This document shows, one piece after another, positions 27,342 to 60,400 of a stretch of DNA of 64,000 bases; position 1 is the stretch's first letter; each line of letters begins with the position of its first letter. The notes beneath the pieces are model-generated. The model made no database searches and was not told the DNA's origin. It was given only the letters and a program-made list of their open reading frames with translations. Origin of the DNA: Apiotrichum sp. Y4204. Lineage: Eukaryota; Basidiomycota; Tremellomycetes; Trichosporonales; Trichosporonaceae. The translations under genes were made by a program, and so were the position numbers. Where the stretch lies: contig JAMYHL010000010.1 of NCBI GenBank assembly GCA_025531455.1, positions 62,001 to 126,000 on the forward strand, in the 5' to 3' direction.

Positions 27342-29854
27342 ATGGCGGGTGGTTCCAATTACATGGCCGTGCCCAACCCCTCAGGCGAGGCGGATCTTGG
27401 CGCCGACCGCCCGACCTCATACATGAGTGAGGGCTCGATTCTGCACCATGACCAGTTCCTGGGCTCTCAGGATGGCCCCGCACCCTCCATAATGTCGCGC
27501 GACTCGACCTACTCTTCCCTGGCACCTCCTTCTCTCAATGATAACCTCGCCCGCTCCTCATGGGGTAGCAACAAGAACTTTGGCGACGCTGGTGCGCTGC
27601 CTGCTGGTGCTGAAGTGAGTTGTGTGGACTACTTGATGATTGGCTAGCGCTGACCTTTCTGCAGGCTCGCCCTCGTATTCCCTCCACTCTTTCTATGGGC
27701 TACACCAGCCCCTTCCCGGACGACCCAGAGGAGCAAGGTCATATTCAGCCGAACGCTTCCGTTCCGCACTCGGACAAGGAGATGCTTCCTGCGTGGGCTG
27801 GTGGAGCGCCGCCCAAGAAGCGCAAGAGCCGTGCCGTCCTCTGGGCGCTTGTCATCGCCCTCGTTCTCATCTGTCTGGGTGTGGGTCTCGGTGTTGGTCT
27901 TGGTATTGCCAAGCCTTGGGAGAACAAGAATGCCAGCTCCTCAAATGACAAGAGCAATGCAGACGCAAACAAGGATCACAACAACGACCACAAGCCCGAC
28001 ACGCCTACCAAGACCGACCCAACTGCCTCTGCCTCTGCCAGCCCTTCTGCCACTGCCAAGCCTACATGGGGTGGGCAGGGCTCTACCATTCTCCTCTCGG
28101 ATGGCACCAACATGACCTACGAGAACACGTTCGGTGGCTACTGGGTTTGGGACGAGGCCAACCCTCTGAACAACTCGGCCAAGTGCAACTCGTGGACTCC
28201 CGCTCTTGACGAGGAGTGGGACTGGAACAATAACCAGATCCGCGGTGTCAACCTCGGCGGCTGGCTCAACACCGAACCTTTCATTGCCCCTTACCTTTAC
28301 GAGGAGACTCCTACTGGCCCCGCCGGTACCTCCATCGATGAGTACACCCTTTCTGTCAACTTGGGCGACAAGCTCGAGTCGGTCATGACCAAGCACTACG
28401 AGACATTTATCACGGAGCGCGACTTTGCCGAAATTGCCTCCGCTGGTCTCAACTACATTCGTCTGCCTATTCCTCACTGGGCCATTCAAAAATGGGAGGG
28501 TGAGCCCTACCTCGAGGGTGTCGCTTGGAACTACGTCCTCAAGGCTCTCCAGTGGGCTCGCAAGTACGGTCTTCGCGTCAACCTGGATCTCCACACCGTC
28601 CCCGGATCCCAGAACGGATGGAACCACTCCGGCAAGCTTGGAATGACCAACTTTCTCAACGGCTCCCTCGGCTTGGCCAACGCCCAGCGTGCTCTCGACA
28701 CCATGCGCACCATTACTCAGTTCATCTCCCAGCCCCAGTGGTCTCCTGTCGTTACCATGTTTGGATTCATCAACGAGCCGCAAGGAGCCACCATCGGCCA
28801 GGGTACCCTTGGAGGCTTCAACATGGAGGTTTACAACATGGTTCGTGAGATTACTGGTCTTGGCAACGGCAAGGGACCCATCATCTCCATGCACAATGGT
28901 TTCCTCGGCAACGACCCCTGGTTCAACTTCCTCCGTGGTGCCGACCGTCTGGCCCTCGATATTCACCCGTACCTTGTCTTCGACAACCAGATGGGCGCCA
29001 ACCCCGAGACTTTCAAGTACCGTCCCTGCCAGGAGTGGGCTCCTGGCGCCAACCAGACGTCGATGCAGTTTGGCATCAACAGCGCCGGCGAGTTCTCTGC
29101 TGCCGTCAACGACTGCGGTCTGTTCCTGAACGGCGTTGGTCTCGGTACCCGCTTCGAGGGAACGTACAGCGGTTGGGAGGGCAAGAGGATGGGCAGCTGC
29201 GAGATGTGGGACGACTGGACCTCTTGGGACCAGTCGCTCAAGGACACCCTCGCCACTTACGCCGCTGGTAGCATGGACGCTCTCCAGAACTACTTCTTCT
29301 GGACCTGGAAGATCGGAAACTCGACTGGCAAGAACCCCGAGCCCAACCCGCTCTGGCACTACCGTCTTGGCCTTCGTGAGGGCTGGCTTCCCAAGGACCC
29401 TCGTACGGTTGTTGGGACCTGCGTCAGGGAGGGTGGTGTTCAATCCAACCCCTTCTACACGATGGCCCAGCCCTGGATGACTGGTGGCGCCGGTGCGGGT
29501 GAGAGTGTGCAGACCCAGAGCTACCAGTGGCCTCCTACCACGATCGGCACTGGCGGCAATGCGGTTAGCGACATGGGCCGCCTGTATCAGTACACGCAGA
29601 CCGCCAACCCGGTCACCCTTCCGGGTCCTACTTACACCGCCCCTGGTGCCCAGAAGGCATTCGACTTTGGCAACGGTTGGGCAAACGCCAACGACAACCG
29701 CAAGGCTTACGCTCCCGTCGGGGGATGCCAGTACCCTGATGAATACACAGCAGCCGCCAGCCCCATCCCTGGCAACGCCTGTGGAGCTGGCCTCGTTCAG
29801 CCCTCGCGTCGCTCACTGGTGGAGCGCAACCCGGCACCAACCCCCGCCGCCTAA
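27342..29854 (+). CDS. Membrane-anchored exo-beta-1,3-glucanase (GH5 family, ExgD-like)
   Basis: Two exons (27342-27614, 27665-29854) encode 820 aa. A long cytosolic N-terminus precedes a type II membrane helix (about residues 147-173, beginning RAVLWALVIALVLICLG) flanked by KKRKSR. A Ser/Thr/Asp/Lys-rich stalk and the GH5 barrel follow. The barrel has RGVNLGGWLN, YIRLPIPHWA, the acid/base Glu in FINEPQG (near 460) and the nucleophile Glu in AGEFSAAVNDC (near 566). Such enzymes release glucose from the ends of beta-1,3-glucan and remodel the wall from the plasma membrane. Many NxS/T sites are present. The C-terminus is long and not GPI-like. Codon use is strongly biased, which suggests high expression. 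A 500-codon antisense frame here is a by-product of that bias. Confidence 0.94.
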
Positions 29855-39360: not shown

Positions 39361-42300
39361 CTACTGGTCCTTCTTCGTGACCTCGTCCAGCTCAGGCAGC
39401 ACGGCCGCTGCCTTTACCTTCTCCTCCTCCGCGCGGCGCTTCTCGCGGCGCTCGCGACCGCGCGTGACCATCTCGGCCGGCTCGAGGTCCGCAAACAGAT
39501 ACTTGCAGACGTTCTCAATGATAAAGCAGCCGCCAAAGTCGAGGACCATGGCGGCGGCAAGGCGGAAGCGGAAGCTCCACGCCATGTCGACAAGCTGCAG
39601 CCACGAGTTGAGCTCGGGGAGAATGTCGAGGGCGCCAGAGTACGCCACGGACGCGGCGCCGACGAGACCGAGGTACAGGGGGCGGTTCTCACGAATACCC
39701 TCACGGAAGGGGCGGCCCTGGAAGTTGAGGACAAAGGTCGACACCTGCTGCGAAAGACCCAGGAGGTAAATGGCGGTGTTGAGGAGGGTGGGCTCAAACT
39801 TCTTCTCGAGATCAATCTCGCCGCGGTCCTCGATCGACTTGGACAGGTCGGTGACGTACATCAGAGCCGCAATGTGGATCGCAAACTGGAGGAGCACCGA
39901 CAGGAGCACATAAAGGTTGAAAATGTTGCCGAGCGGGCGCTCGCGGGAGAGCTTCTCAACCGGCTTGGCGCGCGATATACACAGGAAGCACACCGACATG
40001 AGCATGCCGTTGATGGTGACCTGGTAGTCGCCAAACTTGATGCCGTCGAGGTACTGGACCGAGAGCGAATAGGCGGTAATGAGACAGTTGAGGGCGAGAA
40101 TCTTGTACATCTGGATGGTGGCGACAAGGGTGCAGCGGCCCTGGCGGACAATGTGCGAGATGGCGGCAACATTGGACAGCTTGGAGGTGAAGGGAGCAGC
40201 GCACGAAGCGTCGCCGAGCTTGATCTGAGGAACCTCCTGGCCGTCATCAAGGTCCGCGAGCTTGCCAGTGATGGTGTCGAGGTCAAACTTGGTCATCGGG
40301 TTCTGCTTGCGAGCCTCCTGGTGGTTCGTAGCGACCTCCTCCTGGGCCTTGACGAGCTCGGGGTACACCTCGCGGAGAGCAGCAGGAACAGGCGGAGGAG
40401 GCTGGTTGAAGCGGGCGGAAATCTTGCACTGCTGCTCGTACACCTTCTTGAGACGCTCGTTGCGCTGGTGCTCAGCGATGGCCTTAAGGTCGGCGTCCGT
40501 GCCGTCAAGAAGGGCGACACCGATGTGGGCCTGCTTGAGGGCACCAACATCGTTGGTACCGTCACCGGCCATAAGAGTAGTGTAGCCGAGCTCACGCAGA
40601 GTGCCAACAATGTACTCCTTCTGCGAGGGCGAGACACGAGCGTAGACCCAGGTGTGCGACACGAGGTCCTTCCACGAGGGGAGGAACTCGAACGCGCGAA
40701 CAGCAGCGCCAGTAATGCAAATGTCGTAGTCGCGGAGAATCTCGGGATCAATGGGCTTGGTCGTGTCGACAGGAATGATCTTGGTCTCCTCGACATTCCG
40801 CCAGACAAGGTCCTCGGAGGAGCCCTCCTTGAGGTCCAGGATCATGACGTCGCGGTCGACAATCTCGACATCGCGGGCAACGTGCACGGCCGTGAGGGGG
40901 TTGTCACCAGTGATCATGATGCAGCGGTGCGACGAGTCGGCGAGCATCTTGAGAGTCTCGATGGCGTCGGGCTTGAGAGGGCAGTGGAACACGAGGAATC
41001 CAGCAAACTCGAGCTTGGACTCGACGTCGGAACGGTGAATCTGGTTGATCTTGTCGGGCTGAACGTTCATAGACTTGATACCAAGGGCCAGCACGCGCGA
41101 TCCGCGGCGAGTGTAGTAGCGGTAGGTATCGTCATAGAACTCGGGAACGTGGGTGTACATTGTCTTCAGCGTCTCCGGCGCACCCTTGACGGCAGCAATC
41201 CATTTGCGGCCGCCGGCGTCGGTGACAGACGAGATGGTGGACATGCGCTTGAGGGCAGACGAGAACTGGAAGCGACGACGGATGTGGATCTGATACTTGT
41301 GAACCGCGTCCTTCGAGTTGGGCATAACGTTGTCGGCCCGCGAGAGCTTCCAGTCGAGGGCCTGAAGAGTGGTCTTCTCCATGGGGTCACCAACAATGGT
41401 GTCGTCGTCGAGGAGGACAAGCGCATGGGCAGCAGCGAGGGTGAGCGTCGTCTCCTTCGAAGTGTCGGTGATGTTGACGAGCTTCTTGGGGTCGACGCCA
41501 TCAACACCGCAGACACCTTCAACAACGAGGTCCTCGCCAGTAATGGTACCGGTCTTGTCGAAGCAGCACACGTCCACACGGCCGGCAAAGGGAATGCGGA
41601 ACGGCTCAGTGCAGAAAATGGCGAACTTCTGGAGGGCGACAAGCGAGGCGTTGACAGCAAGCGAGAGCTCCATAGGAAGCTCGGGAGGAACGACCGAGGT
41701 GATAATCAGAACACAGTCGAGAAGGAGCTTGCCCTTGGCCATGCCGCGCCTGTTGCCGTGAATCCAAACATAGGCCGAGGCAGCGATGGCGAAAATAAGG
41801 AGGAAGAGAATGAAGAGGAAGGACTCAAAGTTGTTGGCCGAGACACGCTCCGTAGAGAAGATCATGGTGCGGACGAGCTGTCCCTGGGTGGTGCCAAAGC
41901 CGGTGCGCAGAACAACAGCAAGGCAGCCGCCGTCGGGAGTCTTGATGCCCTCGGCACCCTCAGGCTGCTGCACCTGGAGAGCCTTGGTACCGGAGAAGAG
42001 AACCGAGTTGCGGTCGGCGCCGTTCATGTCAAGAGTGTCAGTCGGCTCACGGAGCTCGATGCTCTCCTTGAGAAGAGGAGTAGACTCTCCCGAGAGCATG
42101 GCCTCGTTGACAATACAGGTTCCGCGGAGGAGGAGAAGGTCGCAGGGAATGCCGGAGTCGGGCTTGGTGCGGAGAATGCTAACGACGTCTCCGGGGACAA
42201 GATCCGACGAGATGACCTCCGTCCACTTGCCGTCACGGAGAGCCTGGACAGGGTAGGGCGTAACGCTCATGGTGCGGAACTCGGTCAGAGTGCGCACACG

Positions 42301-43170
42301 CTGGAACACAACGGTGCACTCAAACACGACGAGCATGAAAGCTGTGAAGAGGGAGTAGTACCAGTACTCGTCGAGGCACCAAAGGGCGACGCAGAACATC
42401 TGGAAGACGAAGAACGGCGCGACGGCGTGCTCGGCAAAGAGCTCGGTGAACTTGGGGATCGGGATATGGCACTCGTTGGGGCCGTACATCGCCTTGAGCG
42501 AGTCAAGCGCAGGCAAGTTGAGCTTGGCAAGCGCGCTGCTCTTCGCGACCGGGTGGGTAAGAATACCCTTGGCGTGCTGGAACTCGGACAGGGGCGGCGA
42601 CGAGTCACACGGGTACGGAATGGGGGCGAAGGAGGGCTCCTCGGAGTTCTCGAGGTAGACATACGTGTCGCGCTGGTAGTTGAACGAGTACGTCGGCTTC
42701 TCCTCGCCGGGCGCGGTCTTCGCGTCGAGTGGCACCATCTCACCCTTGCCGCGACCCTTGGTCGGCACGACGCGCACGTAGCTCGCCGAGGCGAGCGAGT
42801 TTGCGCGGCGGTAGCAGATGTGTGCGCGAACGGCATTGCTCCAGCGCGTGATCAGGAAACTGAGTATGTGGCCGGCGAAGAGGAGGACGCAGTAGATGAA
42901 CGTCCACTCCTCGGACACGACCCAGTCATCGTAGCGGTGGTAGTAGGCGTAGTAGAATACGGGGTAGAGGGCTGATGCGTCAGCAAGCCGATGGGGAACT
43001 AACGCCTCATCACGACTCACAGAGGAAGGGAAGGCCGTAGATGCGAAGATGGATCGGGATGGGGTTCAGTAAGCTGATCCAATCGATCTCGGCGGACGTA
43101 ATGGGCGGCCGCGATGGACTGTAGTCAGTAACTGTGGTTTACAAGTGGGCGCCAGCACTCACTCGCTCAT
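39361..43170 (-). CDS. SPF1: P5A-type ATPase Spf1 (ER transmembrane helix dislocase)
   Basis: Three exons (43170-43163, 43118-43021, 42971-39361) give 1238 aa, near the yeast 1215. The first coding exon is 8 nt and supplies Met-Ser and most of an Asp codon. The second supplies IPIHLRIYGLPFL before the first helices. P-type landmarks are LSGEST (actuator), the P5A-specific PPELPMELS in M4, the phosphorylated Asp in DKTGTIT (near 505) and GDGTNDVGALKQAH. Several C-terminal helices follow, then a basic tail. Spf1 removes mis-inserted or mis-targeted transmembrane segments from the ER membrane. Its loss disturbs ER Mn2+ and sterol balance and protein topology. An antisense frame of 1225 codons spans the gene, but it comes from codon bias and has no protein character. 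Confidence 0.96.
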
Positions 43171-48114: not shown

Positions 48115-50655
48115 TTACTGCGCGGGCGACGCGGCGGGGAACGAGTTGAATAGCGCGAGCAGATCATCATTGTTCGTCTCCCCAAACTTGGCGAGGAGCT
48201 CATGGAGGACATCGCCTTCCTCGGCGCGGACCTCGTTGCGCAGCCCCGAGCGACGGGGCGGGGAAATCTTTCCCTCCGAGGGCGAGTAGTCGTGCGCGGG
48301 GGAGGCAGACGGTGAAGAGAGGAGGAGGACCGAGTGCGGGAGGTTGGAAGGCAATGACGGAGGCGACGAAGGGGGCAGGTTGGAGAAGTCGAACGGCGAC
48401 GAGTGCGAGGCGAGGTCAAAGTCGCCCATTGACGAGGTGCGCTGGAAGAGCTGAGAGAACACGTCGTCGTCAGATGTGGCGCTCGCGAACGGGAGCTCGT
48501 CGCCTTCGTCGGGCTGCTCGCGCACGGCCGAGGACACGTTCAGTTCCGAGACGCGCGGCGTCTCCCGCGTGCTTCCCGGCATGGCGAAGCCGTCGACGTT
48601 GAAAAAGGCCGACAGGTCCGTGTTCCAGTTGACGGTGCTCGGCGGGGCCGGCGCGTCGTCACTGAGCGGCATGGCGAGGGACGGGAGCGAGGTGTCGAGG
48701 AGCCGGCGCAGAGCGGTGTTGGGGCTCTCCGCGACGGCTGCCGAAGTGGTTGACGCCGGTGTGGAAACAGGAACGTCGAGTGGCTGCGCCCATCCGCCAG
48801 GCGAGCTCGCGGCGATATTCGTCGCAGCCGCAAACTTTGCATTGCGGACAGCAGTCTTCGGAGCAGAGGTGGACGGCGACGTCTTCGGGACGACCTTGGG
48901 CGGGGGCGGTGCGGCCTTCGCGCGGGTAGTCGGCGGGGGCGGAGGCGGCGCCTTGGCCTTGCGCTGGTCCGCGATGCGCTGGGCATCCTTCTCGACCACC
49001 TGCGTGAGGGTGCGCTTGAGCCCGCGATCCTTGTTGGCCGCCTCCTTCTTTGCCTTGGCGGCGCGGCCGCGGCGGACGGGTTCTTCGTCGCCGGTCGTCC
49101 AGAACTCTTTGGGGCGCATGGTCCGCGTCTTGTTGTACCACAGCCCACAGGCGTTGCAGACGCGCACGCTTGCGCCGTCGTCGCTCTTTTTCGTGCGCCA
49201 CACGCTGCTCCGCGTCGTGCTGCAGTTCGAGCACTTGAGAGCGCTGTTGTCCTTGTCGTCAAAGCGCGCACGCTTTGTCACGTTCTCCTCGTCCTTCTTC
49301 GCCATCGTCGGCAGCGGCGCGCCCGTGATCTGTTCAAGCATCTGCAGGAACGCGCCGTTCTTCAACAGCTCCTTGACCTTCTCCTGGGTAAGGTCTTCTG
49401 CCTTTGGCAGCGCGACGCCGGAGCGGGTCGGCGTCGAGGACGGGTGCGGGACGTTCATGTCGACGGAGGATAGTGTGCGCTCCTCGTCAGACTTGCGCTT
49501 CCGTGGACGCCCACGCCCAGAGGACGGCATCGGCGCGCGGCTCGAGGCCGATGCGGCAGATGATGGAGGATTGGATGTACTGCATGTGCGTGCTGGCGTT
49601 GTGATGCGCGGGAGGCCGATAGATGGCGCGTGCTGCAGTGGGCGTTGCTCAGTAATCGGGCGGCGGGGTGGATGGGAGGGCGTGGTGGATGGAGCTGGTG
49701 GCTTGGGAGGCGGCGCAAGACAGCCAGCCTGTGCAGCAGCCTGGCCATTCTCAACGGTGGGATGCAAAGGAAGAGGAAAGGTTGCGGGACCTGGCACGGC
49801 CGACTTCAGACCGAGCGATATCTCTATTCCCCACACCTGTCCATCGCTGGCTGCATTACTCCCAATGCAGTCTGCCAGAGCCTGGAGGCCAGATCCAACG
49901 TCAGAGGCTCCGACGGCCGCAAACTCGTGGCGGCGCACAATTCGGCCAGTGATGAGGGTGCTGCCCTGTGAGGGCTCGTCAAGCGCCCAGCTCACGAGGC
50001 CCTTGCCGGTCCACACCTCTCCTGGTGGTGCGCGCGATGGGGATGACCGTATCTCTGAACGTATCTCGGACACTGGGGCGGCGCGTGACCGGCGGAGGTA
50101 CGTTTCGCGGGGATCCAGCACGTAGAGCGAGAGATCTGGTGTGCCAGGGTGGTTGGGGTGGAGTTCTGGGCTGCATGTTAGTTTGAGGACAAGGAGAAGG
50201 CTGGCCGAGGGTGGACGCGTCGGCCATTGACATTGACCCCGTCAGGAGCGGCGTTGCCTCGCACCAGGGCGACATGAAACTGGGATGCGGGTTGGATGCA
50301 CCACCATCAACCACTACTCACCTCGCGAGCATAATCCCCTGAATGACAGTCTTTAGGTAGATTGCCCCCCACGCCTCGTCCTGCCCGTCGACCTTGGAGC
50401 CGGCGTTGGGGTGGACATAAACTTGCTGCTTTGATGTAAAAACGGTGGAGAATGTCTGCGACGACGACTGCAGGTGGTAGGATACCTGGACTGCAGGGCC
50501 GGGTCAGCATCCTGAATGAAGAACTGCGGCCAGCCACGACGCGTATATACACCGTGGAGTCAAGGACGCGTCGTGCAGCATGCAAACACAAAAGACGACT
50601 TACCCGGCAACGAGTGGATCTTGTTCGGAGCCAGCGGCTCGACGGGTTTACTCAT
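48115..50655 (-). CDS. GATA zinc-finger factor with Ams2/Spt21-type N-terminal domain (histone gene regulator-like)
   Basis: Three exons (50655-50604, 50490-50322, 50170-48115) give 758 aa. The first 180 residues match the Ams2/Spt21 N-terminal region: LPVQVSYHLQ, then a segment ending AIYLKTVIQGIMLASPEL, then LSLYVLDPRETY, then GKGLVSWALDEP and TLITGRIV. An AT-hook-like GRGRPRKRK follows near residue 295. Near 386-430 is a GATA-type finger, CSNC followed by CNACGLWYN, with a longer loop than classic GATA factors. The C-terminal half is Pro/Ser-rich with basic and acidic patches. In fission yeast Ams2, and in budding yeast Spt21 (which lacks the finger), this domain goes with S-phase histone gene transcription. 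That role is inferred here. A 549-codon antisense frame is spurious. Confidence 0.87.
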
Positions 50656-53271: not shown

Positions 53272-56200
53272 ATGGTCGTGCTACACCGCGGCGCGGCGCT
53301 TTTGCCCGCTGCGCTGTCATGCTCCCGATCAGCAACGATCGCATCGGCTGTTTCATCGTCGGCCTGGGCAGCGTCCGCACCGACAAGAATAGGCATCGCC
53401 CCGTGTCCGACACGACTGTTCGCGAGCCTTGCCCCGCAGACTCGGATACCGAGGCCTCCGCATCCACGGCCGCATCCCCATCCGCATCCACCGTTTCTCC
53501 GCGCTTTCTCCTCCGCCGCCCTGTCACGACCTTTAGCCGGCCCTGTTTCTTCACCGACCTTCCGCCTCCTCGGCGCGCGCTTCGAGTCCACCCAGACCCC
53601 GAAGCAGCGCGACGATGAGAAGAAGGAAAAGGCCACCGTTCCTGCCCCGGCTGAGATCCACCCCGGCCTTCTGCCCGCGCAGTCCAAGGCCGAGGCCGCG
53701 TCCGTCGTCAAGCTCATCTCCCTCGCCAAGCCCCAGTGGAGGCTGCTGACGGTGGGCGTTGTCTGTCTCGTTATCTCCACCGGTGTCTCGCTCGCTGTGC
53801 CGTACATTATCGGCCGTATCATCGACTTCTTCGCCCCTGGCTCGGAGCAGGTCCTCCTCTTCGGCCTCCCGCTGGAACAGGCCGCATTCGCCCTCGCCGG
53901 GCTGCTCCTTTTCGGCGCGCTCGCCAACTCGGGACGTTCGATCGCTCTTCGTCTCGCTGGACAGCGCACTGTTGCGCAGATTAGGAACAAGACCTACCGC
54001 CAGTACCTTGCGCTCCCGCCGTCGCACATCGAGACCTCGGGCGTCGGTGACGCCCTCTCGCGCCTCGGCCAGGACTCGTCCATTGTCGGCCAGTCGCTGT
54101 CTGAGAACCTCGGTGAGGGCCTTAAGGCCGTCCTCGGAGCCAGTGTCGGAGTGGGTGCAATGTACCTCATCTCGCCCAAGCTCTGCGGCGTCATGGTCCT
54201 GCTCTTCCCGCCTATCTCCATCGCATCGTACTTTTACGGACGCTACATTCGCAAGCTCTCGCTCAACACACAGGAGGCCCTCGGTAACATGAGTAAGCTC
54301 GCCGAGGAGCGTCTTTCCGCGCACCGTACGGTTACAGCGTCCAACACGCAGCCGTACGAGCGCGGCCTGTTTGCTGCGCGCGTGCAGAAGGTCTTCAACC
54401 TTCAAAAGAAGGAGACCTTCGCGAACGGTATCTTCCAGGGTAGTAACGAGGTGGCCGGCGATATTGCCATGATTGGTCTGCTCATCTACGGCGGTATCCT
54501 CGTCAAGGCCGGTGAAATCACTGTCGGTGACATGACGACTTCGCTCATCTACGTCAACTGGATCGAGTGGAGTCTGAACAGTGGGTGCCCGCATACAGCC
54601 TTCACTGACCCACAGCCCTCGCTGGCTTCTTCACTGGTTTGATGCGTGGTGTCGGTGCCTCGCAACGTATCATCTCTCTTCACGCGCTTCCCTCGCCCGT
54701 CCCGCTCTCCATCGGTGCGCCCGTTACCCAGAAGGACATTGGCGCCATAGAGCTCCGTGACGTCGCCTTCGCGTATCCCTCGCGTCCCGACATCCGGGTC
54801 CTTGACGGTGTGAATCTCCGGATAGACCAGGGCGAGCAAGTCGCGCTTGTCGGTGGCAGTGGCTCGGGCAAGAGTTCCATACAGCTCCTTCTGCTTCGCT
54901 TCTACGACCCGACGTCGGGCGCAGTCCGCTTCGGATCCAAGGACATTCGTGACTTTGAGCCCGAGTCGTGGCGCTCCCGTATCGGCTACGTTCCCCAGGA
55001 CCCGATTCTTTTCGGCGGCACCATCGAGGCGAACATCAAGTACGGCCACCCTGACGCGACCCGCGCCGACATTGAGAACGCCGCGAAGATCGCCCACTGC
55101 GACTTTATCGAGCGCATGCCCGAGGGCTACGAGACGGTGATCACGAAGGCGTCGCTTTCCGGCGGCCAGCGCCAGCGTATCGCCATTGCGCGGGCGCTGG
55201 TCGGTCACCCCTCCGTCCTCCTCATGGACGAGGCGACCTCGGCGCTCGACTCCGAGTCGGAGCGCGCCGTCAACGCTGCGCTCGAGTCGCTCTTCCAAGA
55301 CTCGAACATTACCGTCATCCTCATTGCGCACCGTCTTTCTTCGATCGCCGCCGCCAACCGCGTCGTCTACCTTGAGGGTGGCCGCGTCGCCGAGGACGGT
55401 GCGTACGACGACCTCATCGCCCGCCCCCACGGCCGCTTCCGCAAGATGGTCCAGGGTCAGATGGCCAAGATCGGCGAGCCGAGCGACGAGGAGGAGGCCG
55501 CCGCCAATCCCGACGCTCCCCCGCCTCTGCCCGAGGACGGTGACCAGGAGCAGCCACCTGCCATTTCGGTTAATGAGACTGCGACCAAGGCGTCCACCTC
55601 GACCCAGACCACCGGTAAGACTGCCGCTTCGACGACCACCTCCCCTACCGCTGGCCAGCGTCGCGGCATGCACACCCAGGCGCGCCGCGAGCTCTCTAGC
55701 GACGACACCTCGCCTCCGGTTCCTCAGCCCTCCAAGCAGTTCTCGACCGTCTACCAGGCTGCCAACGCTCCGGCCAACCCGCTTGAGGACCTCGGCCACC
55801 CTGTGCCTCCGGCTCCCGCCGCCCCGATCACCTCGTACAAGCCGCTGCCGCCGTTCACCCTCAACCGCCTGATCACCACGTACTCGCAACTGTCGAAGCG
55901 CAACCTGTCGATCCTCATGACTCTGACTGCGACGACTGGTTTCGCCCTCTCGCCCCTGCCGCTTTCGATGCCGGTGCTGCTGTGCCTTACCGTTGGAACG
56001 TTCCTCACTTCGGCCGCTGCCAACACCTTTAACCAGATCCTCGAGGTCCCGCTCGACGCCCAGACACCGCGTACGCGTGTCCGCCCGCTCGTCGCCCGCC
56101 GTGTGACGCCGTTCCACGCCGCCATGTTTGGCGCCACCTCGACCATTCTTGGCGGCACCATCCTCTGGTTCGGCTGCAACCCGACTACCGCGCTTCTCGG

Positions 56201-56900
56201 CATCGGCAACCTGCTTCTCTACTCGGCCGTCTACACGCCCATGAAGCGCTTCAGCGTGTCTAACACTTGGGTTGGCGCCGTAGTTGGCGCCATCACCCCG
56301 CTCATGGGTTGGACTGCCACGGGCGGCTCGCTGTGGCCGACGACTGAGCAGCCGCTAGTCCTACACTCACCCTTCGAGTCGTTGGCTGCCTTCTCGGACC
56401 TCCCGAATCCTCTCACCGCGTGGACTCTCGGTGCGCTGCTCTTCTGCTGGCAGTTCCCGCATTTTAACGCCCTGTCACATATGATCCGGCAGTTTTACGC
56501 CCTCTCTGGCTACCCCATGCTCTCGGTCCTCTCGCCTCGCCTGAACGCCCTCGTGTCGTTGCGGCACGCGCTCCTCCTCGTTCCGATCTGCGCGATCATG
56601 GCCCCGCTGAGCGGCTGCGTCGACTGGAGCTTTGCCCTCACATCCGCGATCCCGAATGCCATTTTCGTCAAGGAGGCGTGGAAGTTCTTCCGGCATACAA
56701 ACGAGGCGACTGCGAAGCGCGTTTTCTTCGTGTCGCTGTGGTATCTCCCTGTCGTGCTGGGATTGATGCTCGTGCACAAGAACCTCGGCGGTTGGATCCG
56801 GAAGGAGCTGGCTTGGGAGGAGAGCGAGGAGGGCAAGGAGACGATCCGCGAGATCGAGGAGAGCAGGGGAAGGGTGCTCACTGCGCCTGTCGCAAAGTGA
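53272..56900 (+). CDS. Fusion protein: mitochondrial ABC half-transporter (Mdl1/ABCB10-like) joined to Cox10 heme O synthase
   Basis: Two exons (53272-54580, 54616-56900; one 35-nt intron) encode 1197 aa in one frame. Residues 1 to about 100 are Arg/Ser/Ala-rich, with RAFSS and RLLGARFEST, a mitochondrial presequence. Six membrane helices follow (about 145-430) and then the nucleotide-binding domain: Walker A GGSGSGKSS (near 514), Q-loop VPQDPILFGG, signature LSGGQ (near 616), Walker B LLMDEATSALD, H-loop IAHRLSS, ending near 715. A Pro/Thr/Ser-rich linker (about 715-840) has an Arg-rich QRRGMHTQARREL. From about 840 a complete UbiA-type Cox10 domain begins: ANTFNQILEVPLDAQ (Mg-prenyl-PP motif), RTRVRPL, YTPMKRFSVSNTWVGAVVG and FCWQFPHFNALSH. 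Cox10 farnesylates heme B to heme O for cytochrome oxidase. Mdl1/ABCB10 proteins are inner-membrane exporters tied to peptide or heme metabolism. The single intron sits inside the transporter, not at the domain boundary. Confidence 0.93.
54581..54615 (+). other. 35-nt intron in the ABC-COX10 gene
   Basis: The donor is GTGGGT and the acceptor CACAG, with a CTGAC branch site about 12 bases before the end. Splicing joins SLN to TLAGFFTGLMRGVGAS, the expected transporter sequence, and shifts frame correctly into the second exon. Confidence 0.9.
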
Positions 56901-57443: not shown

Positions 57444-60400
57444 ATGCTGCTACATCGCGGACTACACGCTACGAGGACCATACGCGCCCCATCCTCGTCC
57501 GCGATCGTCGCGGCGCAGCACGCGGTCCACGAAGTCGACGAGTACCCGTTCGCGTCGCCACCGCCGCCGATAACCAGCTATCCCCACTCCCATCCCTCTT
57601 CACATCCAGATCCCATTTCCTTTGATCCATTCTCCTCCTCACGTCCACAGCGCGCTCCTCCTTCGATAGACCCCGCGTTCGAGCCGCGCGAATCCGACTT
57701 TTCACACGATGACGCGGACGCCGACCCCCTCCCATCCGACCTCACCTACCCCCCTTCTGCCCTCGATCCCCCACATCTGCCGACCTACGAGGCGAGCCTG
57801 AAGAAACCCCGGCGGCGGCGGCGGGCTGCCACCGCCGTCCCCGATCTCCCGCCATTACCCCCCACCGCCTCTGGTCTGAGCCGCTTCGACTGGCGCGCGT
57901 CCGCCCCCCTGCCCTCGCGGCGCGGAGAGCGGTGGTGGTTTCCCGAAACGTGGCGCGCGCGCGTCAACCCCCCCATGCGGCCGCTGACCGAGCTGGACGG
58001 ATACTGGCCCGAGATTAGGCGGTATACCGAGCAGTATGTGGAGTGCACCGAGTCATGCTGATTGTAGTTTCGTTCCGTTGCTTGAGGCGGAGCAGGCGGA
58101 AGCCGAGAGACAGTTCAACGAGCGCTTGAAAGAATGGCCGGCGGAGCAGCTCGCGCGCGAGGGCTTTATGCTGAGTGATATGGGCGCCAGCACGGAGTGG
58201 CAGCCCAAGTTCCGCGTCGAAGGCCGCGTGGTGACCTTTGCGAAGACGGGCGCGGCGGCGACAAGACCGTTACCGATGCACCAGTTCCAGTGAGCTGATT
58301 CTGTCTGTTTAAAGCTGAAACCAGACCCGGATCGACCGTGCTCCTCTCACGGCGCGACCCGCTCGGCGACCCGGTACTGGACGAGTCGGGCACAGCGCTC
58401 AAGGGCAATGTGCTCTCGGCTGCGCGGGGGTTCATCCGCGTCGCCTTCCCCTTTATCCCGCCCGACATTGACATTGGCCACTGGCGTATCGACGTCGGGT
58501 GTAGCGACTTTGCGTTCCGGCGGCAAAAGGAGGCGATTGTGCGGCTCAACCTCGACCCCGTGGCGCAGGACATGGCGGACTTTGCGCACGCGCCCCTTCC
58601 CGCGTCGAACAGCGTCGAGGACGAGGCGCTGCACGCAGCGCGGAAGCTCCGCGACCAGCAGGTCCTCACCGGCACCGCACTGCGTGACCTTCTCCTGCGG
58701 AGGTTCCAGGCAGAGTACGAGCCTGCGGCGTCGGGCGTCGAGGACAACTTTGCCGACGCGGCCGAGATGAAGCCGTCAGACGTGGACGCCGTCGCCTCCC
58801 CGACTGCCCACATCGCTGGCCCAGCGGGGATCCTGCACCAAAACCAGCTCATCGCCAGCTGGGCACAGCGGTACCGCTCCCCGCGGGCGCCCGTTGTCGT
58901 CGAGGGCGACCCGGCCGTACCACTGAACGCAAGCCAGGTGCGCGCGATCGCGCTCATGCTCAGCGAGCGCCTGAGTCTCGTGCAGGGCGTGAGTACCAAA
59001 GTACTGTATATCCTCTGACGGCAGCCTCCAGGGACAGGCAAGACGCGCGTCATTGTCGAGACGATCAAGCTGCTCAAGAAGCACTGGCGCATCCCGCACC
59101 CGATCCTCGTGTGCGCACACACGAATGTGGCGGTGGACAACCTGCTCGACGGATTAAATGCGCACGGCGTCCGAGCCCTGCGCTTCGGGAACGCGGCGCG
59201 CGTCCCCGAGTCGCTGCTGGATCTGACGTTTGATGCAAAGCTCGAGGAGCACCCTCTGTGGAAGACGATGGAGGCGTTGAAGGATGAGCGGACGAGACTG
59301 CAGGAAGGCCTCACTGGTGCGTGAAGAATCTGGGTGGGACTGACGGCAGGCAAGAAGGGTGATGCTGCGCAGAAGCGTATTGGCGCGATCAACTCTCGTC
59401 TCTTCCTCCTCAGGCGGCGGGTGCACTACGAGGTCCTCGCCAATGCTGATGTCGTGAGTCCCATTTCTCTTGTTTGTTGTCCGCGCTCACTCCAGATCTG
59501 CACGACGTGTCTCTCCGCGACGTCTCGCATGCTCGACGTCATCGACTTTCCCTTCGTGTTCCTCGACGAGGCGTCCATGGCCACCGAGCCGCTCAGCCTC
59601 GTGCCGCTCACCAAGGGTGCCGCGCAGGTTGCCATCATCGGCGACCACAAGCAGCTCCCGCCGGTGATTCTGAGCGAGGACGCGCAGGCGGGCGGGCTGG
59701 CAACTAGCATGTTTGAGCGTCTGATCCACGAGAAGCGTAAGAATGAATCCTCAACACGCACTGACAGCAGACATCCCATCCATCATGCTCGACACGCAGT
59801 ACCGTATGCACCCCTCCATATCTTCCTTCTCCTCGAGGACATTCTACAACTCGGCGCTCAAAGACGGCACCGTCGCTCCCGACGGGTCCGTGCGTCCCGG
59901 CCTCGAGCCGCCCGCCACCGCGTTCCTCCGCGACGGCCCCGAGGGCCGCCTCAATGTTACGTTCCTCAACCACGACTTTCCCGAGTCGCCTGCGCACCGC
60001 AGCATTGCAAATTACCACGAGGCCGGGCGCGTGTGCGACATTGTCGCTGATCTCCTGCACAATAATCCGGTACGCCTCGGCTTTTAAAACCCACAATATG
60101 CTAATATCAAGGACCTCAAGGGCGCGGACATTGGCGTGATCGCGCCTTACATCGCGCAGATCCGGACCATCTCCGACTTTCTCAAGGCCGATCCGGAGCG
60201 ACAGGCCGCCTTCCGTACGTGGCTCGGCGACCGGGCAGACGAGGTACACGACATTGAGGTCAAAACGGTGGACGGGTTTGAGGGCCGCGAAAAGGCCGTG
60301 ATCCTCTTCTCGACTGTGCGCTCCAACCCGGGCGGCTATATTGGTTTTTTGGCCGACTGGCGCCGACTGAATGTCGGGCTGACCCGTGCCCGCCGCGCGC

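Follow-up and report, generated by a model that had tools for sequence, protein, structure and literature searches.

The 64,000-nucleotide stretch of DNA analyzed here (the window) comes from Apiotrichum sp. Y4204 (GenBank assembly GCA_025531455.1, contig JAMYHL010000010.1, positions 62,001 to 126,000). On its + strand, at 53272-54580 and 54616-56900, it carries a gene predicted to encode an ABC half-transporter of the ABCB10/Mdl1 type joined through a linker to COX10 (heme O synthase). The start ATG lies at 53272 and the stop codon, counted within the coding sequence, occupies 56898-56900; the conceptual product has 1197 residues and a mass of 129 kDa. At the level of sequence, the two genes are genuinely fused, and we are highly confident that the fused frame constitutes a real coding unit.

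Gene structure and domain content

Exon 1 (53272-54580, +) specifies residues 1-436 together with the first base of codon 437, and covers a presequence-like N-terminus (11 Lys/Arg and 1 acidic residue among residues 1-110) as well as the ABC membrane domain recognized by Pfam (PF00664, residues 160-429). Exon 2 (54616-56900, +) holds the remainder of the ABC transporter, the linker, and COX10 in a single open frame; in the same conceptual protein, Pfam places ABC_tran (PF00005) at residues 499-645, with SMC_N matching below threshold within the ATPase, and UbiA (PF01040) at residues 873-1144. A match to PF02628 (heme A synthase) was absent from the fused protein in the Pfam comparison. The presence of these three domains in the 1197-residue protein bears out the proposal of an earlier note on this DNA that an ABCB10/Mdl1-type half-transporter and Cox10 share one reading frame. 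That note had also described the locus as one uninterrupted gene, which proved to be wrong, as the ABC half contains an intron of 35 nt.

This intron (54581-54615, +; GTGGGT...CTGAC...CACAG) is placed after residue 436, just beyond the Pfam membrane domain, and is frame-shifting: the unspliced ABC frame terminates at 54642, and removal of the intron restores it. Between the two copies of the locus found in the genome (see below), the intron differs at 5 of 35 sites, as compared to a divergence of 3.06% in exon 1, and its branch motif is positioned as in introns of COX15, COQ2, and the MDL paralogue, which are 35-45 nt long. Taken together, these two features render the intron credible.

Coding constraint in two genome copies

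The assembly (G000; 48.9 Mb in 182 contigs) contains a second fused copy on contig C112, and the two versions of the locus align over 8.9 kb with 94% identity. The C112 gene has the same intron and the same exons and likewise encodes 1197 residues, with 13 amino acid differences and no coding indels, and a stop codon between the ABC ATPase and COX10 is found in neither copy. This bears directly on the possibility, raised in the earlier note, that an assembly or base error deleted a stop and that the true genes are separate neighbors. Two contigs carry the same open frame, and their divergence within the linker is of the coding type, which renders an error of this kind unlikely; we consider this explanation scarcely credible.

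With respect to constraint, dN/dS between the two copies (NG86) is 0.044 for the whole gene. The value is highest for residues 1-110 (0.352) and falls to 0 in the ABC core, where 42 synonymous and no nonsynonymous changes were counted, and to 0.023 in COX10. The linker (residues 721-850) gives 0.092, with 14 synonymous and 4 nonsynonymous changes, and its second part (residues 776-850) gives 0.147, which is slower evolution than that of the N-terminal 110 residues. A synonymous excess is seen in both parts of the linker, third codon positions hold 14 of its 18 differences, and linker indels are absent, as compared to 12 indel events in the 1,068 sites of two flanking non-coding stretches. Without constraint, the probability of observing 4 or fewer nonsynonymous changes among 18 is 6e-6, and that of finding no indel in 383 linker sites is 0.014. 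From this substitution pattern and the lack of indels, it is very likely that translation runs through the linker in this frame in both lineages.

The presence of two copies is not peculiar to this locus, as for most of the genes searched a pair of near-identical copies lies on separate contigs (C2/C112, C1/C129, C94/C139, C68/C113, and others). This duplicated content and the G+C content of the window (58.9%) fit a Trichosporonales-type hybrid or diploid, and hybrids of this type are described in PMC7026411 and PMC6642101. Running counter to a hybrid origin is the size of the assembly, 48.9 Mb versus the 16.4-42.4 Mb given for 33 strains in PMC7026411. The two copies could instead be diverged haplotypes.

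The exporter half and a second Mdl1-type gene

The exporter half combines one ABC membrane domain with one ABC ATPase, which is the domain content of a half-transporter of the MPE, or ABCB10/Mdl1, group. Its ATPase motifs (54852-55343, +) are intact, and comprise what we take to be the Walker A motif (GGSGSGKSS, residues 516-524), the Q-loop (PQDPILF, 563-569), the signature (LSGGQ, 617-621), Walker B (VLLMDE, 637-642), and the H-loop (IAHRLSS, 673-679). On the strength of the Pfam domains and these intact motifs, the half-transporter appears complete, as had been claimed earlier. Exon 1 alone has human ABCB10 as its best match in the PDB (E 1.9e-50). When the 611-residue ABC part was compared with the PDB, ABCB10 matched with 420.7 bits in one stretch and was the closest half-size transporter among the matches listed, yeast Mdl1 not being among them. 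The matches ranked above ABCB10 are two-domain transporters, the halves of the top one scoring 242.5 and 238.5 bits. A mitochondrial inner-membrane location is predicted for the exporter half from the presequence-like composition of its N-terminus.

A check of the genome for a second MDL1 uncovered a stand-alone MPE/Mdl1-type half-transporter gene on C1 (C1:706000-710500, L041), whose product shares 54% identity with the ABC half of the fusion across 527 residues. This paralogue contains two introns of 37 and 41 nt, as read by eye, and ends 12 residues beyond the aligned part, whereas the fused protein runs roughly 480 residues further into Cox10. Its copy on C129 is 99% identical and has one TAA within the matched stretch. 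The exporter half may thus be partly redundant, and the suggestion in the earlier note of an obligate linkage is weakened as far as exporter function is concerned. According to PMC2848647, most fungi have one MPE transporter, and the pairs in Rhizopus oryzae, Cryptococcus neoformans, and three hemiascomycetes are ascribed there to independent duplications. A duplication common to the present MPE pair and that of Cryptococcus is a lead.

The COX10 half and the search for another COX10

The COX10 half (55839-56897, +; residues about 845-1197) is a predicted heme O synthase, the enzyme of heme b farnesylation. Specifically, the fused protein scores 227.7 bits with the NCBIfam heme O synthase model TIGR01473 (cut-off 210.3), and 150.1 with a second such model, NF003349, which is below the cut-off of 246 for that model. 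An alignment of 13 sequences, consisting of the fused protein and 12 bacterial CtaB proteins (from 12 of the 23 CtaB loci of the bacterial and archaeal scan described below), contains 27 invariant columns, including those of the N-x3-E-x3-D and RTxxRP motifs. In the fused protein these two motifs span residues 909-928, and are followed by YTPxK at 976-981 and WQFPHF at 1047-1053. Comparison of the structure model with known folds assigns the half to the UbiA type; comparison of its sequence with the PDB gave no meaningful match (best E 0.52). The TIGR01473 score, the conserved CtaB motifs, and the UbiA fold support the claim that a full Cox10 with all its motifs is present.

An intact COX10 elsewhere in the genome, with the fused one unexpressed, had been put forward as evidence that would speak against the proposal, and three exon-by-exon searches of the 48.9-Mb assembly, which may be incomplete, found no COX10 besides the two fused copies. 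A UbiA profile detected four places, two of them being the fused copies. With TIGR01473, the fused copies scored 233.7 and 233.3 bits and were the sole ones over the cut-off, as compared to 44.3 and 40.6 bits for the other two places, and with the COX10 half as query the two fused copies were followed by next best matches at E 0.014 and 0.016. From a reading of their sequence, the two non-fused UbiA places look like COQ2. COX15 is a separate gene present in two copies, on C113 and C68. As the fused copies are the only COX10 found, the fungus appears to rely on the fused frame for heme O synthesis.

The linker region

The linker (55467-55850, +; residues 721-848) comprises about 130 residues, the first third of which is acidic and Pro-rich and the end of which is again Pro-rich. 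Between these lies a candidate internal presequence or cleavage region (55578-55688, +; residues 758-794) that is acid-free, basic, and rich in Ser, Thr, and Ala, with 6 Lys/Arg in 37 residues, and that ends in GQRRGMHTQARR. Only 1 of these 37 residues (position 778) differs between the two genome copies. By its composition, the region could be a remnant of Cox10's own presequence, as might be expected if the precursor were a mitochondrial polyprotein whose linker the mitochondrial processing peptidase cleaves to give an exporter of ~77 kDa and a Cox10 of ~45 kDa. There is precedent for such processing in yeast Arg5,6, which is cut internally after import (PMC8835746), and PMC10450427 cites both Arg5,6 and rice RPS14-SDHB. 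The stretch nonetheless argues weakly for an internal presequence, because the same crude rule marks one in 4 of 15 long open reading frames in the window, the fused one included, some of which may be non-coding frames. In addition, windows starting at residues 755-785 have a low helical hydrophobic moment (0.16-0.35). We regard the cut polyprotein as a reasonable possibility, held at less than even confidence.

The linker was also considered as a place where transcripts might end, begin, or be spliced differently, such that alternative promoters, poly(A) sites, or splicing would yield two products and the fused frame would be a by-product. In terms of splicing, a scan restricted to GTRNG donors and to intron lengths between 30 and 160 nt returned 14 donor-acceptor pairs, among them a good-looking donor (GTAAGA, 55615) that, with an acceptor ending at 55658, would bring the ABC frame to a stop 13 codons later. 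As a reference we used 7 introns of 35-45 nt, picked by eye from 4 genes including the fused one and thus a small calibration, in all of which YTNAY starts 10-11 nt before the 3′ end. None of the 10 linker pairs tested directly has the motif at this spacing, although four of them carry YTNAY at 42 or 48 nt only. The remaining 4 of the 14 pairs end at 55547 or 55553, where a scan of 55466-55900 finds no suitably spaced branch motif. For the pairs considered, this test speaks against an intron or stop concealed within the linker. The part of the earlier claim that concerned the linker, namely that the frame passes through it free of stops and introns, stands, with no stop in either genome copy and no intron recognized within it; its extension to an intron-free gene does not.

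Internal initiation would be a further source of a separate Cox10. In-frame Met codons are present at 714, 719, and 788, but Met714 and Met719 precede the acidic stretch and Met788 precedes MHTQARRELSSDD, so that a Cox10 started from any of them would be without a presequence-like start. Considered alongside the branch-site results and the synonymous excess in both parts of the linker, these contexts make production of two separate proteins from the locus improbable in our estimation.

As to the origin of the linker, no convincing match was found elsewhere in the assembly besides the second copy. The best weak match, on C105 (E 0.022, 0.0043), was considered as a sign that the linker is a piece of another gene; on reading, it looks like chance similarity in non-coding DNA. 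Other weak matches fall on C133 and C35 (E 0.5-0.6) and on C112 and C182 (E 0.69, 2.15).

Genes adjacent to the fused locus

The next gene downstream, at about 57446-59018 of the window, appears to have a presequence-like start (MLLHRGLHATRTIRAP) followed by a motif, LNASQVRAIALMLSERLSLVQG, that we presume to be helicase-like from its resemblance; the piece of this gene that was scanned had no Pfam match. Among other neighbors in the window, Pfam identifies a P5A-type ATPase (39364-43065), a GH5 cellulase-family protein (27614-29851), and, with a score marginally above the cut-off, a GATA zinc-finger protein (48118-50241).

Comparison with known systems

The halves themselves are unremarkable members of known families, and as far as the literature searched shows, it is their combination that is new. 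The exporter half shares with ABCB10/Mdl1 and other MPE transporters a single membrane domain, a single ATPase, and a presequence-like N-terminus. The COX10 half shares with Cox10, CtaB, and CyoE (TIGR01473) the catalytic motifs, the UbiA fold, and a score over the curated cut-off. Elsewhere, Cox10 is a 46-kDa enzyme (PMC7140478), whereas here it follows an ABC transporter as the C-terminal portion of the same chain.

Two types of fusion invite comparison. Bacterial CtaA-CtaB fusions (PMC9145763) resemble the present gene in that heme O synthase is joined to another heme-handling protein. In those bacterial proteins, however, heme O synthase is joined to the enzyme that comes next, heme A synthase, whereas here the partner is an ABC exporter and COX15 is found elsewhere in the genome. 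Fungal Arg5,6, as described in PMC8835746, similarly has a single frame for two mitochondrial enzymes, led by one N-terminal presequence, which in our case is assigned by composition. Cleavage between the parts has been shown for Arg5,6; in the exporter-Cox10 fusion it is hypothetical, and both parts of this fusion are membrane proteins.

A scan of bacteria and archaea yielded 23 CtaB loci, and an ABC match within the CtaB frame was found in none of the 23, two of these frames (L053, L067) being cut by the end of the locus. An ABC ATPase match lies elsewhere in the locus, outside the CtaB frame, in 5 of the 23. In two acidobacterial loci (L055:1748-2413 and L062:5930-6586) this match falls 9 and 51 bases past the end of the CtaB frame, on the same strand and in another frame, which is a possible operon and no fusion. 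The long CtaB frames of L047 and L050 look, by eye, like non-coding upstream extensions. A frame of 584 residues in an Omnitrophota metagenome-assembled genome (L052:4086-5837) joins heme A synthase to heme O synthase, and on reading its sequence we name it a CtaA-CtaB fusion. A scan of viruses gave 6 pattern matches, none of them a relative.

No description of an ABC-COX10 fusion was found among the papers listed in the literature searches. Two surveys of fungal ABC proteins (PMC2848647, PMC4692070) make no mention of a fusion, of protoheme, or of Cox10 in their main text, and a passage on Aspergillus fumigatus COX10 mutants (PMC12136443) holds nothing on gene structure. As these sequence scans covered bacteria, archaea, and viruses, the fusion may stand annotated, unnoticed, in fungal relatives.

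A model for the fused protein

The ABC ATPase of such exporters and the N-terminus of Cox10 are oriented toward the matrix side. In the model that we favor, a single spliced mRNA would give rise to a single precursor consisting of an MPE half-transporter, the ~130-residue linker, and heme O synthase, and the N-terminal presequence would import the entire chain into mitochondria. Both halves would then reside in the inner membrane. The ATPase, the linker, and the active site of Cox10 would all face the matrix, which for that active site is also the prediction given in PMC7140478. With all three on the matrix side, a tether would need no extra membrane crossing. If left uncut, the chain would form a tethered pair with Cox10 and exporter at 1:1, and a dimeric exporter would bear two Cox10 units, such that the supply and location of Cox10 would be tied to the transporter.

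We favor this tethered exporter-Cox10 pair over the cut polyprotein as the mature state, at a confidence that we place at about even. In its favor, PMC7140478 names ABCB10 among the partners of ferrochelatase and states that there is no information on the route of heme b to Cox10. Channeling of heme b would be conceivable in the tethered case, as would some help with heme supply. Several points weigh against the tethered pair. The motifs RRG and ARR occur within the basic, acid-free stretch of the linker and are possible sites for the mitochondrial processing peptidase. The structure model is silent on the tether, the ATPase and linker having predicted local distance difference test (pLDDT) scores almost wholly below 50, with three ATPase sequences in the alignment. 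Most of the comparisons rest on two closely related copies, and the presence of a stand-alone Mdl1-type paralogue means that the exporter half need not be essential.

A more ambitious proposal is that the whole chain acts as a dedicated inner-membrane heme unit, in which substrate handling by the transporter is physically coupled to heme b farnesylation. We regard a dedicated heme unit as rather unlikely.

Biological significance

The cargo of ABCB10/Mdl1 transporters is still debated. The occurrence of the fusion in both genome copies, with these being the only COX10 found, provides a "Rosetta stone" hint that the exporter and Cox10 belong to one process, and the fused gene offers a single construct with which this link could be tested in laboratory yeast. 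Should the chain be cut in the linker, the fusion would secure co-expression and a single import signal with no physical tether, and would add to the natural mitochondrial polyproteins one that is composed of two multi-spanning proteins of the inner membrane. Should it instead operate as a dedicated heme unit, the Mdl1/ABCB10 family would have a direct role in heme A supply.

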